In this document: positions 1,508-5,965 of the stretch, in pieces | Layout of the letters: the number at the start of each line of letters is the position of its first letter | How positions within the stretch are numbered: the stretch's first letter is position 1 | Origin: Solirubrobacteraceae bacterium | GTDB lineage: Bacteria; Actinomycetota; Thermoleophilia; Solirubrobacterales; Solirubrobacteraceae | Length of the DNA: 5,965 nt | NCBI GenBank assembly: GCA_025935735.1 | Contig: JAICUS010000386.1 | Coordinates: forward strand, 1 to 5,965 | Direction of reading: 5' to 3' | Made by a program: the position numbers and the translations under genes | Notes under the pieces: model-generated | Told to the model about the DNA's origin: nothing | Database searches by the model: none | The model's input: only the letters and a program-made list of their open reading frames with translations

Positions 1508-1525
1508 ATGTCCGCACCGGTTACA
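1486..1525. promoter_or_regulatory. Candidate operator: inverted repeat TGTAAC ... GTTACA around the MerR-B12 start
   Basis: TGTAAC (1486-1491) and GTTACA (1520-1525) are perfect inverted copies with centres 34 nt apart, flanking the ATG at 1508. MerR-B12 regulators of the CarH/LitR class are known to bind near their own promoters at sites containing TGTACA-like cores; TGTAAC is similar but not identical. Position and AT content fit autoregulation, but binding by this protein is inferred. Confidence 0.3.
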
Positions 1526-2335
1526 GGTGAGTTGCGGATGGGCGCGTTCAGCCGGCGCGTCGGAGTCTCGCCCGCCGTGCTGCGCGCCTGGGAGGCGCGT
1601 TACGGGTTGTTCACGCCGCGGCGGACGTCCGGCGGGTTCCGCCTGTACTCGGCCGCGGACGAGAGCCGGGTGCGCCGGATGCTCGCGCACCTCGCCGAGG
1701 GCGTCGCGCCGCGCGAGTCCGCCGCGCTCGTGCTGGGGGCGCCGGCGCCCGACGCGCTGGCGGTCGAGTCCCTCACCGCCGCGTGGAGCGCGCTCGACGG
1801 CGCGGAGGCCGACCGCGCGCTCGACGCGCTGCTGGACCGCCCGGAGCCGGCGCGGACGGTCAGCGACGTGGTCCTGCCGGCCCTGGGCCGCGCCGCCGAC
1901 GCCTGGGGCGGCCGGACGCCGCTCGCCACCGCGCGCTGCCAGCTGGCGAGCCGCCAGCTCGAGGCGCGGCTGCTCGCGCTCGCCGCCGGCTGGCACCAGA
2001 ACGGCGGGCCGCTCGCGCTCGTGGGCTGCGGGCCGGGCGAGCACCACACGCTCGGGGCGCTGACCTTCGCGCTCGCCCTGCACGGCCGCGGCTGGCGCAT
2101 CGCCTACCTCGGGGCGGACACGCCGGTGGACGGGCTCCTGCCGGCGGCGCGCGCGCTCGGCCCCGCGCTCGTGACGGTCGCGTTCACCGTGGCCCGGCCG
2201 GGCCGCGAGCTGCGCCCGCTGGCCGCCGAGTTCCCGCTCGCCGTCGCCGGCCCGGGGGTCGACTCCGCGGGCGCCCGCGCCGCCCGCGCCGCCTGGTTCG
2301 CCGGCGCGCCGGCCGCGGCCGCCGAAGGCCGCTAG
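1508..2335 (+). CDS. MerR-family transcriptional regulator with C-terminal B12-binding domain (CarH/LitR-like)
   Basis: This 275-aa protein opens with a MerR winged helix-turn-helix (about residues 10-75: FSRRVGVSPAVLRAWEARYG, then a wing with RRTSGGFRLYS). A helical-bundle linker (about 90-160) and a Rossmann-like cobalamin-binding domain (about 165-265) follow. The B12 motif is E178-x-H180-x-x-G183, the E-x-H-x-x-G form used by CarH-type proteins; H180 would be the lower cobalt ligand. In CarH the linker carries W-x9-EH, which packs on adenosylcobalamin. Here W133 is present but E-H is replaced by R143-C144, so light sensing through adenosylcobalamin should not be assumed. Start choice: ATG 1508 leaves enough residues ahead of the MerR fold but has no Shine-Dalgarno. 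AGGTGAG (1525-1531) fits a start at ATG 1538, which would give 265 aa. An upstream in-frame ATG at 1442 looks too long. The stop interlocks with that of the convergent 68-aa gene. Confidence 0.88.
   Translation: MSAPVTGELRMGAFSRRVGVSPAVLRAWEARYGLFTPRRTSGGFRLYSAADESRVRRMLAHLAEGVAPRESAALVLGAPAPDALAVESLTAAWSALDGAEADRALDALLDRPEPARTVSDVVLPALGRAADAWGGRTPLATARCQLASRQLEARLLALAAGWHQNGGPLALVGCGPGEHHTLGALTFALALHGRGWRIAYLGADTPVDGLLPAARALGPALVTVAFTVARPGRELRPLAAEFPLAVAGPGVDSAGARAARAAWFAGAPAAAAEGR
1525..1531 (+). promoter_or_regulatory. Shine-Dalgarno-like AGGTGAG that may set an alternative MerR-B12 start at 1538
   Basis: AGGTGAG lies 6 nt before the in-frame ATG at 1538. It is the best ribosome binding site in this region and argues for the shorter protein. 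MerR-family proteins normally have a few residues before the first helix, which argues for 1508 or for the in-frame TTG at 1532. The two lines of evidence disagree. Confidence 0.4.
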
Positions 2336-2550: not shown

Positions 2551-3177
2551 TCATGCTCCCGCCTCGCCGGGTGACGCATCGTCGCTCTCAGGGGATGACT
2601 GCGCGTGCGCCAGGCGCGCCAGCCCGGCCGCGTCGAGCGCCGCGGCGGCGCGGCCGATCAGCGCGAGCGGGCGCTCGCGGGCCAGCGCCCGCAGCTCCGC
2701 CCGCTCGGGGCCGGTGAGGCCGGCGGGCGCTCCGCTCACGACCACGAGCGCCGCGGGCTGCTCGCGGGCGGCGTCGCGCAGCGCGGACACCGGCGTGGCC
2801 GCGCCCAGGTAGGAGATCCGGCAGCCCCGCTCCGCCAGCTCGATGCCGAGGGCGACGAGCGCCAGCACGCGCTCCTCGCGCGGCGCGCACGCCAGCACGA
2901 CGAGCGGCCCGCGCCCGGCCTCCCAGCCGCGCGCCTGGGCGAGCAGGCGCTGCTCGAGCATCGACGTGGCGACCCGGTGCGCGACGGGCTCGGACTCCAG
3001 GCGGGCGAGCACGGGCTCGGCCACCTCGCTCAGGAACACGGGAGGAGAGCGGGTGGCCAGAGCCTCGTCGAGCAGGTTGTGCACCGATTGCAGCCGGAAC
3101 CGTCGCAGCGCGCGCTCCAGCCGCGCGACCAGCGGGTCGGCGGCGTCGACCGCCGCCTCGGCGTTCTCGCTCGACAT
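2551..3177 (-). CDS. Stand-alone B12-binding-like domain protein lacking the cobalt-ligating histidine
   Basis: This 208-aa protein has no DNA-binding domain. A helical bundle (about residues 15-88) is followed by a Rossmann-like domain (about 90-192) and a short acidic tail. It resembles the sensor half of the MerR-B12 protein at 1508-2335: LEQRLLAQARGW matches LEARLLALAAGW, and ISYLGAATPVSALRDAA matches IAYLGADTPVDGLLPAA. Where that protein has E-H-H-T-L-G, this one has E101-E-R103-V-L-A106, so the lower-ligand histidine and the glycine are both lost, and the CarH-type W-x9-EH is absent. Cobalamin binding in the usual base-off/His-on mode is therefore unlikely. It may be a ligand-free partner, a binder of another molecule (compare SCHIC-type domains that take heme), or an anti-regulator. 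The ATG at 3177-3175 has a weak GGAG 10 nt upstream. It is first gene of an operon with the 68-aa gene and divergent from the Usp gene. Confidence 0.8.
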   Translation of the reverse strand: MSSENAEAAVDAADPLVARLERALRRFRLQSVHNLLDEALATRSPPVFLSEVAEPVLARLESEPVAHRVATSMLEQRLLAQARGWEAGRGPLVVLACAPREERVLALVALGIELAERGCRISYLGAATPVSALRDAAREQPAALVVVSGAPAGLTGPERAELRALARERPLALIGRAAAALDAAGLARLAHAQSSPESDDASPGEAGA

Positions 3178-3192
3178 GGTGCGGATGCTCCG

Positions 3193-3267
3193 AGCGTGTC
3201 AGCACCTTGGGTGAGGGCGGCTCACCCCGGCCGGATGAGGAGCCGTCATCCCCGGGCTGCCTAGGCT
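3193..3267. promoter_or_regulatory. Bidirectional promoter region A with a four-heptamer alternating array
   Basis: Four heptamers start exactly 12 nt apart in alternating orientation: GGGTGAG (3209), CTCACCC (3221), GGATGAG (3233) and GTCATCC (3245). The first two form a perfect 7-bp inverted repeat. On the plus strand, TAGGCT (3262-3267) follows the last heptamer after 10 nt and precedes the Usp ATG (3276) by 8 nt, so the transcript could be leaderless. On the minus strand, CACGCT (3198-3193) follows the outer heptamer after 10 nt and lies upstream of the B12-like gene. No conserved -35 hexamer is visible at the usual distance, which would fit an activator-dependent promoter. Region B repeats the geometry. 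Confidence 0.6.
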
Positions 3268-3275
3268 CGGCGAGC

Positions 3276-4145
3276 ATGCCGTCCGCCGTCGTCGTCGCCT
3301 GTGATCCGGCCGCCTCCGACCGGTCGGCGATCGACTTCGCGGCCGGCCTGGCGCGGACGCTCGGCGCGCCGCTGGTCGTCGCCGTCGTGCGGCCGGCGGA
3401 CGCGCTGGCCGGGGTGGAGAGCGACGACGGGGCCGAACCGGAGCGCCCGCCGGCCGGCCTGCTGCGCGGCCACCCGGGCGCCGAGCTGCGCGCGCTGCGC
3501 GCGGCCTCCCCCGCCGCCGGCCTGCAGCGGCTGCTGGCCACCGAGCACCCGCGGCTCGTCGTGCTCGGCTCGGCGCGCGGCGCCCTCCACGGCTTCACCC
3601 GCCTCGGCGCGACCGCCGAGCGCGCCCTCCACGGCTCCCCCTGCCCGGTCTCGGTCGTCCCGCTGGGGCACGGCGGGCGCGCGCCCGGCCCGGTGGTGGT
3701 CGGCGTGCTGCCCGGCCCCGAGGGCCGCGGCGCGCTCGCGCTGGGCGCGGAGCTGGCCCGCGCGGCCGGCGCGCCGCTGCAGCCGCTCGCCGGGCGGCGG
3801 CGCGCGCCGAGCGCCGCCGACGCCCGCGCGCTGGCGGCGGGCCTCGCGGACGCCCTCAGTGCCGCGCCGCCCACGCCCGGCGACAGCCCCGGCGCGCTCC
3901 TCGTCGCCGCCCTCTCCGCGGCCGCCGGCGGCTCCGCGGAGCCGCGCGTCCTCGTCGGCGATCCCGTGGACGCCCTCCTGCGCGCGTCCGCGGGCGCGGG
4001 GATGCTCGTGCTCGGGTCGCGCGCCTACGGGCCCCCCGGCGTGGTGCTGCCCGGCGGCGCGGCGCGCCGCGTGCTGGCCGGCGCCCGCTGTCCCGTCGTC
4101 CTCACCCCGCGCGCCGCCGCCCGCGAGCCGGCGCTGGTGTCATGA
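3276..4145 (+). CDS. Universal stress protein with two tandem Usp domains
   Basis: This is a 289-aa cytosolic protein. The first Usp domain (about residues 1-130) begins with the strand AVVVACD and ends with GSARGALHGFTRLGATAERA (98-117) followed by SPCPVSVVP. The second (about 138-278) begins PVVVGV and ends GSRAYGPPGVVLPGG (247-261) followed by CPVVLTP. The G-S-x-R-G ... G signature is the actinobacterial version of the nucleotide-binding loop, so ATP or another nucleotide may bind; the second copy has GG where G-S/T is common. Tandem Usp proteins are widespread in actinobacteria and are linked to hypoxia, dormancy and general stress, usually without a known reaction. The ATG at 3276 starts right at the first beta strand; the in-frame TTG at 3207 would lie inside the promoter array. 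No clear Shine-Dalgarno is present. The stop overlaps the FGE start as ATGA, giving translational coupling. Confidence 0.9.
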   Translation: MPSAVVVACDPAASDRSAIDFAAGLARTLGAPLVVAVVRPADALAGVESDDGAEPERPPAGLLRGHPGAELRALRAASPAAGLQRLLATEHPRLVVLGSARGALHGFTRLGATAERALHGSPCPVSVVPLGHGGRAPGPVVVGVLPGPEGRGALALGAELARAAGAPLQPLAGRRRAPSAADARALAAGLADALSAAPPTPGDSPGALLVAALSAAAGGSAEPRVLVGDPVDALLRASAGAGMLVLGSRAYGPPGVVLPGGAARRVLAGARCPVVLTPRAAAREPALVS

Positions 4146-5008
4146 GCGCGGTGGGCGCCCCGCCGCGGCAGGACATGGCCTGGATCCCCGGCGGCCGCTT
4201 CCGCATGGGTTGCGACGCGTTCTATCCGGAGGAGCAGCCGGTCCGCATCGTCGACGTCGAGGGCTTCTGGATCGACACGCACCCGGTGACCGTGGCGAGC
4301 TTTCGCCGCTTCGTCCGCGCGACCGGCCACGTGACGACCGCCGAGATGGCTCCCGACCCGGCCGACTACCCGGACGCCGACCCGCGGCTGCTCGTGCCCG
4401 GCTCGCTGGTGTTCCGGCCGACGCCGCAGCCGGTACCGCTGGACGACCACCTGCAGTGGTGGCACTGGGTGCCGGGGGCCTGCTGGCACAGCCCGGAGGG
4501 CCCGGGCAGCGACACCTACACGCGCGGGCGCCACCCGGTGACCCACGTCACCACCGCCGACGCCGCCGCCTACGCCGCGTGGGCGGGCGCAGAGCTCCCC
4601 ACCGAGGCCGAGTGGGAGCACGCCGCCCGCGGCGGGCTGGACGGCGCGCGGTTCGCCTGGGGCGACGAGGACGACCCGCGGGCGTGCAACCGCTGGGTGG
4701 GCGAGTTCCCCTGGCGCGGGTATCGCGGCACGTCGCCGGTCGCCACGTTCCCGGCCAACGGCCACGGGCTGTACGACATGGCCGGCAACGTCTGGGAGTG
4801 GACGAGCGACCCGTTCGCGGCGGCGCCGCCGCCCTCGCCCTGCTGCGCATCTGCGCCCGGCGAGCACATCCCGCGCCAGGTGATCAAGGGCGGCTCGCAC
4901 CTGTGCGCGCCGAGCTACTGCCTGCGCTACCGGCCGGCGGCGCGCCAGGGCGAGGCCGTCGACACCTCCACGAGCCACATCGGCTTCCGCTGCGTCGTCC
5001 GGCCCTGA
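4142..5008 (+). CDS. Formylglycine-generating enzyme (FGE/SUMF1 family)
   Basis: This 288-aa protein has the FGE-sulfatase fold from end to end: MAWIPGGRFRMGCDAFYPEE at the start, PTEAEWEHAARGG in the middle, GLYDMAGNVWEWTSD, then KGGSHLCAPSYCLRYR near the C-terminus. The pair C255 and C260 (C-x4-C) matches the two active-site cysteines of aerobic FGE, which bind copper(I) and use O2 to oxidise a cysteine in C-x-P-x-R motifs of client proteins to formylglycine. Many SUMF1-like relatives lack these cysteines, so their presence argues for real FGE activity. Known clients are type I sulfatases, but no sulfatase is encoded in the window. A C-C pair (PCCASAP) in a loop before the active site is an extra feature of unknown meaning. 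The gene overlaps the Usp stop by 4 nt and is probably translated by coupling. No signal peptide is seen, so it should act in the cytosol. ATG 4175 is a possible shorter start. Confidence 0.92.
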   Translation: MSAVGAPPRQDMAWIPGGRFRMGCDAFYPEEQPVRIVDVEGFWIDTHPVTVASFRRFVRATGHVTTAEMAPDPADYPDADPRLLVPGSLVFRPTPQPVPLDDHLQWWHWVPGACWHSPEGPGSDTYTRGRHPVTHVTTADAAAYAAWAGAELPTEAEWEHAARGGLDGARFAWGDEDDPRACNRWVGEFPWRGYRGTSPVATFPANGHGLYDMAGNVWEWTSDPFAAAPPPSPCCASAPGEHIPRQVIKGGSHLCAPSYCLRYRPAARQGEAVDTSTSHIGFRCVVRP

Positions 5009-5018
5009 CCGGCCGCGC

Positions 5019-5210
5019 TCACACCGGCGGCGGGACCCGGCTGTTGCGGTCGTTGAGGTAGAGGAACAGCGAGATCGCGAAGCCGACGACCCCGACGATC
5101 ATGAGGATGGTCCCCACGGTCTGGATGTCGATCCCGGCCAGGGTCGCGGTCACCGCCCAGTGCAGGATCGCCCCGACGGCGATCAGGAACAGGCTGACGC
5201 CGAGGCTCAT
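5019..5210 (-). CDS. Small two-helix membrane protein, DUF6458 family
   Basis: This 63-aa protein has two hydrophobic segments (about residues 4-23 and 30-51) joined by GIDIQTVG, and a short polar tail ending NSRVPPPV. The opening MSLGVSLFLIAVGAIL, the D-x-x-TVG turn and the ILMIVGVVG helix are typical of the small actinobacterial membrane proteins annotated as DUF6458. Function is unknown. Its ATG overlaps the stop of the upstream 71-aa gene as ATGA, so the two are translationally coupled and should be transcribed from promoter region B. The gene ends 10 nt from the stop of the convergent FGE gene, leaving no room for a conventional terminator; the intervening bases show no clear hairpin with T-run. 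Confidence 0.85.
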   Translation of the reverse strand: MSLGVSLFLIAVGAILHWAVTATLAGIDIQTVGTILMIVGVVGFAISLFLYLNDRNSRVPPPV

Positions 5211-5422
5211 GCGGCCACCGGCGGAAGCGGGCGGACGTCGACGATCTCCAGGCCGCCGCCGCGCAGGCGGTCGAGTGCGCCGTGCAGCGCCGGGCGGTCG
5301 GGCAGCGTCCCGCGCAGCACGGTGTGGCGCGGGGCGACGAACGCCTGCAGTCCCAGGCGCTCGGCGCCGTCCACGGGGACGGGGCCGCGAACGCGGATCT
5401 CGACGAGTGAGGGCTTGGCCAT
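5207..5422 (-). CDS. Small conserved hypothetical protein (71 aa), paralogue of the 68-aa protein at 2332-2538
   Basis: This is a 71-aa soluble protein sharing EIRVRG, LGL, TVLRG, LDRL, G-x-E, VR and LPP with the 68-aa protein at 2332-2538 in a 61-residue gapless alignment. The predicted layout is the same small alpha/beta fold. A longer frame continues upstream to 5896, but that part has no resemblance to the paralogue and is the antisense of the HdeD-like gene. ATG 5422-5420 is therefore chosen; it gives MAKPSLVEIRVRG, close to MALNYEIRVRG in the paralogue. GAGG at 5434-5431 could serve as Shine-Dalgarno. The same bases form part of the -10-like GAGGCT (5434-5429), in which case the transcript would be nearly leaderless. 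The stop overlaps the start of the DUF6458 gene. Function unknown. Confidence 0.8.
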   Translation of the reverse strand: MAKPSLVEIRVRGPVPVDGAERLGLQAFVAPRHTVLRGTLPDRPALHGALDRLRGGGLEIVDVRPLPPVAA

Positions 5423-5428
5423 CGGCCC

Positions 5429-5503
5429 AGCCTCACCGGACGTGGTGTGAGCGGGCATCCCCCGGCCGGGGTGAGGCGCCGTCATCCCGCCGGCGCCGAG
5501 CAT
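5429..5503. promoter_or_regulatory. Bidirectional promoter region B, matching region A in geometry
   Basis: Heptamers GTGTGAG (5445), GGGTGAG (5469) and GTCATCC (5481) sit at offsets 0, 24 and 36, as in region A. The second position is degenerate: GGCATCC at offset 9 instead of 12, within the GC-rich dyad CATCCCCCGGCCGGGGTG (5456-5473). On the plus strand, GAGCAT (5498-5503) follows GTCATCC after 10 nt and lies upstream of the HdeD-like gene, giving a leader of roughly 27 nt. On the minus strand, GAGGCT (5434-5429) follows the outer heptamer after 10 nt, just ahead of the 71-aa gene. The block from about 5461 to 5487 also resembles 3226-3251 in base sequence. Confidence 0.6.
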
Positions 5504-5536: not shown

Positions 5537-5965
5537 ATGGTGAGCGAAGTGGCCGCGGTGGCCAAGAACTGGTGGCTGTTCGTCGTGCTGGGGTCGATCT
5601 GCCTGATCGCCGGCGTCCTGGCCATCGTCTGGCCGGACAAGACGCTGCTGGCGATCGGCATCTTCGCCGGGGTCTACCTGATCATGGCGGCGATCATGGA
5701 GATCGTCGAGGCGATCTTCGGCGAGCCCGGCGGGCGGACCATGAGCGCGATCCTCGGCGTGCTCGCGCTGATCGCCGGGCTGATCCTCCTGCGCCGGCCG
5801 GGCACGAGCCTGCTGGCCATCGTCATCGCGCTCGGCATCTTCCTGGTGGCCGAGGGCGTCATCCGCGTCGTCCGCGCCTTCGAGGCGCGCGAGCACCGCG
5901 GCTGGTCGATCGCGCTCGGCACGTTCGACGTGCTGATGGGCATCGTCATCCTCGCCTGGCCGGGC
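5537..5965 (+). CDS. HdeD-like DUF308 membrane protein, N-terminal 143 residues, truncated by window edge
   Basis: The frame is open for 143 codons to the right edge. After a short cytosolic start (MVSEVAAVAKN) there are about five hydrophobic segments, roughly residues 12-31, 36-58, 69-86, 91-112 and 123-141. The repeating pattern is the DUF308 signature: G-x-x-x-LIAGVLAIVWPDKTLLAI, then a second ILGVLALIAGLILLRRP-type unit, and a third beginning GTFDVLMGIVILAWPG. HdeD-family proteins are about 180-210 residues with six transmembrane helices, so roughly a quarter to a third is missing. In Escherichia coli HdeD is tied to acid resistance; in actinobacteria the role is undefined. The gene is divergent from the 71-aa/DUF6458 operon and reads from promoter region B. 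The long minus-strand frame opposite it is a shadow. Confidence 0.88.
   Translation, partial: MVSEVAAVAKNWWLFVVLGSICLIAGVLAIVWPDKTLLAIGIFAGVYLIMAAIMEIVEAIFGEPGGRTMSAILGVLALIAGLILLRRPGTSLLAIVIALGIFLVAEGVIRVVRAFEAREHRGWSIALGTFDVLMGIVILAWPG

Follow-up and report, generated by a model that had tools for sequence, protein, structure and literature searches.

What controls the genes on either side of two symmetrical repeat arrays in the DNA of a Solirubrobacteraceae bacterium, and in what unit should those repeats be read? The window, that is the whole stretch analysed, is 5,965 nucleotides (nt) of GC-rich DNA from contig JAICUS010000386.1 (assembly GCA_025935735.1). Two of its divergent intergenic regions carry heptamers that alternate in orientation and are flanked on the outside by hexamers resembling -10 elements. 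The original prediction saw in them a single operator type serving four outward promoters, each with a -10 at a fixed distance; the sequence data support this and add a fifth promoter, described below as region C. Our preferred answer, to which we give a probability of roughly 0.78, is that a MalT-like STAND activator would occupy three boxes in place of a -35 element and recruit RNA polymerase to a -10 element at a fixed distance, with units placed back to back serving two genes. The boxes, their spacing, the -10 elements, their conservation and the positions of the start codons are statistical properties of the sequence, and from these we infer binding, activation and an inducer.

We define the forward (F) box as GGRTGA and the reverse (R) box as TCAYCC, and score each box by its matches out of 6. 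Array A (3209-3251, both strands) consists of F at 3209-3215, R at 3221-3227, F at 3233-3239 and R at 3245-3251, within the heptamers GGGTGAG, CTCACCC, GGATGAG and GTCATCC; all four hexamers score 6/6, and the exact 12-nt steps described for this region hold at every position. Array B (5445-5487, both strands) consists of F at 5445-5451 (GTGTGAG), R at 5457-5463 (ATCCCCC), F at 5469-5475 (GGGTGAG) and R at 5481-5487 (GTCATCC), with scores of 5, 5, 6 and 6. Here the heptamers at offsets 0, 24 and 36 were where they had been placed, but the member described as shifted and degenerate stands in register, its hexamer TCCCCC matching at 5/6. None of 200 dinucleotide shuffles contained an array with a summed score of at least 21, compared with 24 and 22 for the two window arrays. 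The accompanying idea that the sites lie on one face of the DNA is a loose one, since a 12-bp step drifts by about 50 degrees at 10.5 bp per turn.

Reading outwards, the hexamers TAGGCT (3262-3267, plus strand), CACGCT (3193-3198, minus), GAGCAT (5498-5503, plus) and GAGGCT (5429-5434, minus) each begin 10 nt outside an outer box, exactly as described. They precede, respectively, the genes for a universal stress protein (USP; start codon at 3276), a B12-binding-like protein (ATG at 3177), a DUF308 protein (start at 5537) and a protein of 71 amino acids (aa; ATG at 5422). The putative fifth promoter, region C (2553-2599, minus strand), is a weaker one that lies inside the 3' end of the B12-binding-like gene and is predicted to be aimed at a gene for a 68-aa protein. 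Its boxes, at 2569-2599 and read leftward, are R at 2593-2599, a degenerate F at 2581-2587 and R at 2569-2575 (6, 4 and 6 of 6), followed at N10 by GAGCAT (2553-2558, minus), with the ATG of the 68-aa gene 14 nt on. A gene at locus L208 that is similar to the 68-aa gene has an array scoring 4, 6, 6 and 5 with CAGCAT at N10.

The arrangement recurs in other genomes. The F-R palindrome GGRTGAGNNNNSGTCAYCC matched 33 times, in 17 of 146 genomes, and its reversed-pattern control not at all; two of the 17 (G236 and G381) are near-identical at the locus. With at most one mismatch allowed, the three-box pattern matched in 38 of 399 genomes and its control gave one match. A scan of contigs for relatives found a best identity of 45% among the matches listed. 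Distances between boxes were counted in 20 of 21 sources; L205, a near-copy of L204, was excluded from this count and from the counts of F-R pairs and of 115 units given below. An F was followed by an R at 12 nt 35 times and at 36 nt 10 times, an R by an F at 12 nt 30 times, an F by an F at 24 nt 26 times and an R by an R at 24 nt 20 times, and any other spacing up to 60 nt occurred only 0-2 times. The alternating 12-nt array is thus found again in relatives, with peaks at 12, 24 and 36 nt alone, and the expected conservation in orthologous intergenic regions is likewise supported. Perfect boxes in the same sources never stood F to R at 60 nt or R to F at 36 nt, and arrays therefore seem to run from an F to an R and to have four boxes at most.

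The symmetry that first drew attention is present, but the unit beneath it is asymmetric. In the counts of array sides, outer boxes, F-R pairs, 115 units and 38 units, similar sequences were removed by ungapped identity. NANNNT stands at offset 10 in 95 of 115 non-redundant three-box units and at any other offset 0-6 times. In 62 non-redundant arrays, limited to those with both core boxes at 5/6 or better, NANNNT was found at N10 on 58 of the 79 sides with a good outer box (other offsets 0-7) and on 3 of the 41 sides that had none. Where the core was perfect, the presence of the -10 fell with the score of the outer box, from 39/44 at 6/6 through 7/13 at 5/6 and 5/8 at 4/6 to 1/43 at 3/6 or less. 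An upstream R box of at least 5/6 accompanied 95 of 106 F-R pairs with a -10, compared with 20 of 144 pairs without, while a fourth box of that quality was present in only 28 of the 106. In eight sources anchored on STAND genes, the window included, the upstream R box and the -10 were both present 31 times, mixed 3 and 3 times, and both absent 36 times. Because the outer and upstream R boxes go with the -10, the predicted promoter unit is R-F-R-N10-NANNNT, or TCAYCC-N5-GGRTGA-N7-TCAYCC-N10-NANNNT. On this evidence the F-R-F-R arrays are two such putative units, opposed and with a common inner R-F pair, and their symmetry arises because two asymmetric promoters overlap.

The column frequencies of the three-box units contain no canonical -35. 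Among 106 units, G fills the third position of the F box in 70% and A in 29%, and array A contains GGATGA as such. If -7 is assigned to the T of NANNNT, the -10 elements and start codons would place the inner R-F pair at about -36 and the extra, third box at about -29 to -23. We rejected an alternative sigma factor as the reader of the boxes, since N10 is too short a spacer for a -35/-10 pair of the sigma-70 type and inverted alternation is not expected of a sigma factor. The arrays might instead be repressor operators that block the -35 and -10 of both promoters: palindromic operators are common for repressors, and four boxes covering about -65 to -23 could obstruct RNA polymerase. We consider this unlikely, given that the distance to the -10 is fixed at a single value in the 95 of 115 units, that the outer box tracks the presence of a promoter (39/44 vs 1/43), that the column frequencies reveal no -35 of canonical form, and that the MalT proteins of E. 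coli and Actinoplanes are activators (PMC7567727).

An open reading frame (ORF) of at least 60 codons begins 22-26 nt after the last box, or 6-10 nt after the hexamer, in 55 of the 95 units with a -10; further on, no five consecutive positions between 27 and 59 nt hold more than 18 such ORF starts, and 40 of the 95 have no ORF start at 22-26 nt. Start codons at 22-26 nt lie where a leaderless messenger RNA (mRNA) would be expected to have them, and several targets are probably leaderless. In the window the hexamer-to-start gaps are 8 nt (USP), 15 nt (B12-binding-like), 6 nt (71-aa) and 33 nt (DUF308), so two of the four promoters could be of this kind, and the USP mRNA, with its start codon 8 nt after TAGGCT, would be leaderless. 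In L204, L206, L208 and L220 the N10 hexamer before genes for DUF308-like proteins is TAGCTT or TAGCGT, and the ATG follows 6-8 nt on. The same geometry makes it hardly credible that the repeats are signals in RNA, such as hairpins or terminators, or the chance yield of GC-rich DNA. Transcribed F and R boxes, being complementary, could form base pairs, but they are located upstream of the -10 and the start codon and would be missing from these transcripts. We set hairpins aside on that ground, and chance on the shuffles and on the reversed-pattern controls, which were near zero.

The best candidate for the regulator is the MalT-like STAND/LuxR protein whose N-terminal 481 aa are encoded at 1-1443 on the minus strand of the window, and which is proposed to bind the boxes. 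Homologues (E <=1e-60) occur in 18 of 19 Thermoleophilia genomes with at least two array matches and in 37 of the 380 others (P 3.6e-16, a value weakened by the scoring of two candidates per genome and by genomes that are related and not independent). Proteins with 64-70% identity to the window protein were found in 7 of 24 genomes searched, and all seven have an array within 1.5 kb of the frame; five of the seven had been listed partly because they held the palindrome, and two, the near-identical G236 and G381, have as their nearest array a weak one (2, 6, 5, 6). Arrays lie 13-65 nt from STAND stop-to-stop frames at L208, L253, L257 (on the 3' side) and L261. With L329 added, these loci have an array within about 70 nt of the frame, unlike the window, where the gap between the STAND and MerR-B12 genes (1443-1508) holds none.

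An orthologue at L203:10902-13547 has GerE, TPR_MalT and AAA_22 matches above cut-off and an AAA_16 match below it, the NTPase, MalT-like TPR and C-terminal GerE helix-turn-helix (HTH) that mark a predicted STAND/LuxR (LAL) protein of the MalT type. Its best PDB match is 8bob, the N-terminal part of MalT (E 1.9e-44), and its HTH can be aligned with the E. coli MalT HTH. It scores 315 bits against NCBIfam PRK04841, the MalT equivalog, for which the curated cut-off is 537; it is thus a relative of MalT, whose activation depends on ATP and maltotriose, and not MalT itself. Four array-adjoining STAND proteins all have GerE and MalT-TPR matches, one of the TPR matches falling below cut-off. No maltose genes were present among the window targets or the array-linked proteins scanned, which are part of the regulon. 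Two related STAND matches (G340:C27:4515-7118 and G162:C4:2475-5075) each have one in-frame TGA within the alignment.

The original prediction had named two suspects, LuxR-type and MerR-B12 proteins, and these part company here. The window encodes a CarH-like MerR-B12 regulator (1508-2335, plus strand; 58% identity to a Solirubrobacter taibaiensis protein) that could in principle bind the arrays in a light- or cobalamin-dependent manner, being a DNA-binding regulator encoded beside them. Its homologues have no link to the arrays, occurring in 5 of 19 genomes with at least two array matches and in 58 of the 380 others (Fisher P 0.20; the genome set is, judging by the genome labels, probably the same 399 as in the array search). 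Moreover arrays and the STAND orthologue are found together in G311, G236 and G381, where no MerR-B12 protein matches at E <=1e-40 (six candidates per genome). We rejected this protein as the regulator and regard the idea as very improbable; the LuxR-type suspect is supported by the counts for STAND homologues.

The unit extends beyond this lineage in a patchy manner: a phylum-wide draw with zero mismatches gave only 4 of 396 genomes (G160 among them), yet in the family reached via another of the four, G626, which probably belongs to another class, the unit was present in 40 of 81 genomes and the control gave 0. At 32 loci the -10 stood at N10 in 24 of 38 units (other offsets 0-5); three of the 38 came from other genomes, all of them lacking a -10 at N10. 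In 21 named actinobacterial genomes there were 3 one-mismatch matches in 2 genomes, none with a -10 at N10. Four regions of the G626 family picked as array-dense all contain STAND frames. In that family the genes that follow arrays include those for FGE-sulfatase and DUF7144 proteins, with between one and three MalT-like STAND genes alongside. At L326 and L327 a 6,6,6 unit stands before an FGE-sulfatase homologue with CACAAT at N11 and NANNNT not at N10. In a further family, where 2 of 3 genomes match, G466 and G452 have arrays beside SfLAP and DUF308 homologues. By sequence, the predicted regulon content is partly common to more than one family, and its putative targets (USP, DUF308, DUF7144, DUF1269, SHOCT, SfLAP and FGE-sulfatase) look like a stress or maintenance regulon. 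A wider regulon is suggested by arrays elsewhere that stand before the genes for a DUF2254 membrane protein (L216) and a histidine kinase (L217) and, as judged by eye, before those for a PAS-LuxR-like protein (L221) and, next to a STAND paralogue, a kinase-like protein (L222).

Several observations weigh against a STAND activator acting through three boxes, in addition to the relatedness of the genomes noted above. Many regions were picked because they held arrays; the -10 was not a selection criterion except for L220, which supplied 4 of the 95 units and had been listed on the basis of a TAGNNT -10, and 20 of the 115 units have no -10. A search akin to that suggested by the original prediction, pairing a single box with a -10 (GTCAYCC-N5..15-TAGNNT), failed to show enrichment, with 77 matches in 24 genomes and 102 in the reversed control; such a pair is too weak a signal. 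Counting every genome with any array match, STAND homologues occur in 23 of 38 genomes and in 32 of the 361 without, and in genomes with a single match in 5 of 19, nearer background; some single-match genomes are probably chance finds. G001 matches the array pattern twice and STAND not at all, and 32 STAND-positive genomes have no array match. Among regions chosen for their arrays (fetched at 5-20 kb), STAND frames were found in 0 of 7 (L215-L221), in 6 of 18 (L253-L272 less L261 and L264, where STAND was known beforehand) and in 2 of 4 (L285-L288); arrays were read in L289 and L290, and these counts exclude both. The STAND copy in the window shows its NTPase part only and is cut before the HTH, which lies past the window edge. 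The regulator could be acting from a distance, or a different protein could fill that role.

That last thought can be put more precisely: another LuxR/NarL-type or an unrelated regulator with the same half-site might read the arrays, with the STAND gene merely a frequent neighbour. Many array regions without a STAND frame are as this would have it, as are the genomes without a STAND match, 15 of the 38 with any array and 1 of the 19 with at least two. It sits poorly with the association of 18/19 vs 37/380, with the arrays placed 13-65 nt from STAND frames at four loci, with the STAND frames in all four array-dense regions of a separate family, and with a box sequence that is the one expected for MalT. 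We judge it rather unlikely, and retain the STAND activator as the probable reader of the arrays.

How such an activator might work can be outlined. The STAND protein, whose gene is often a neighbour of the arrays, would be switched on by ATP and a signal, whereupon it would oligomerise and bind the boxes. The promoter-proximal F-R pair, spanning about -41 to -23, would bracket the -35 position, hold sigma region 4 there and so recruit RNA polymerase. In an F-R-F-R array one activator assembly could serve both directions, since the two opposed units have a common inner R-F pair. About 88 bp separate the predicted transcription starts of the two directions, which probably leaves room for only one polymerase at a time.

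In the window, array A is predicted to drive the B12-binding-like gene to its left (2551-3177, minus strand; no HTH, no Pfam family) and to its right the USP gene (3276-4145, plus; two matched stretches), followed by an FGE-sulfatase (SUMF1-like) gene (4142-5008, plus) whose start overlaps the USP stop and which is predicted to belong to the same operon. Array B is predicted to drive the 71-aa gene on its left (5207-5422, minus; no Pfam family) and on its right the gene for a DUF308/HdeD-like membrane protein (5537-5965, plus), cut at the window end. The predicted region C target is the 68-aa gene (2335-2538, minus; no Pfam family). By eye, the 68-aa and 71-aa proteins, each behind an array, are similar to one another, and arrays precede proteins similar to this pair at L208, L210 and L211. 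The B12-binding-like protein has a weak CarH match (E 8e-4) and, by eye, REERVLA where the MerR-B12 protein has GEHHTLG; the B12-ligand histidine looks lost in this HTH-less relative of the CarH type. Proteins similar to it, again by eye, form divergent pairs with a USP-like partner at the L203, L206 and L207 arrays.

Whether these promoters form a widespread actinobacterial class, so far undescribed, is in our estimate an evenly balanced question. Such a class would be characterised by a STAND protein on three half-sites, the third of them in the -35/-10 spacer, by a rigid R-F-R-N10-NANNNT geometry, often leaderless and capable of being mirrored into a four-box, two-way form, and by a shared stress/DUF regulon that it defines. 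Were this so, it would also explain the Actinoplanes MalT region. The geometry is rigid enough for members of the regulon to be read from raw sequence, and thus would give DUF308, DUF7144, DUF1269, SHOCT, SfLAP and an FGE-sulfatase gene a first functional context; it would also assign targets, in more than one actinobacterial family, to MalT-like STAND regulators that are orphans. The presence of a LuxR-type box in the -35/-10 spacer raises the structural question of how two activator heads leave room for sigma region 4 between them.

Comparison with known systems places the arrays closest to MalT. DosR/NarL-type operators resemble them in having palindromes for a LuxR-type HTH, and USP genes are among the DosR targets, but their half-sites and spacing differ and their regulators are receiver-domain proteins. 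E. coli MalT is the reference STAND/LuxR activator and regulates maltose genes; it shares with the arrays the word GGATGAG and a box near -35, with a core of GGA(T/G)GA where we find GGRTGA. In the malPp sequence that we fetched, TCATCC, TCCTCC, TCCCCC and GGATGA stand at other spacings, and no such box lies downstream of GGATGA. The E. coli consensus is quoted in PMC7567727 as GGGGA(T/G)GAGG. According to the available portion of PMC7250471, BvgA binds Pfim3 as serial head-to-head dimers 22 bp apart; the last dimer shares its centre with the -35, to which sigma region 4 also localises. The promoter-proximal pair brackets the -35 there as it would here, but BvgA is a phosphorylated response regulator and not a STAND protein, recognises another half-site and is not shown, in that portion, in a divergent arrangement. 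The literature searched, mainly outside subscription papers, did not yield a third box within the -35/-10 spacer, the back-to-back form or a stress/DUF regulon partly shared between families, and PMC7567727, of which a part was available, held the only related operator found. That operator corrects the original prediction, which knew of no described operator of this form: the boxes are of the MalT type and the inner pair is the operator of the MalT homologue (ACSP50_3915) of Actinoplanes sp. SE50/110; MalT-type boxes and the core TCATCC-N5-GGATGA are already known (PMC7567727). The Actinoplanes protein activates promoters with this core, controls no maltose genes and is encoded among its own targets, as far as that part of the paper goes. 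The 3' end of the core lies 34.4 +/- 1.0 nt from 17 mapped starts, or about 35 nt, within 1-2 nt of the 36 nt or so that we predict here from the -10 elements and start codons. Our inner pair matches its spacing exactly with T/C and A/G variants, mostly TCACCC/GGGTGA where Actinoplanes has TCATCC/GGATGA, while the third box, the back-to-back array and the 12-nt series, which go unmentioned in the same part of PMC7567727, are all seen in the arrays described here.

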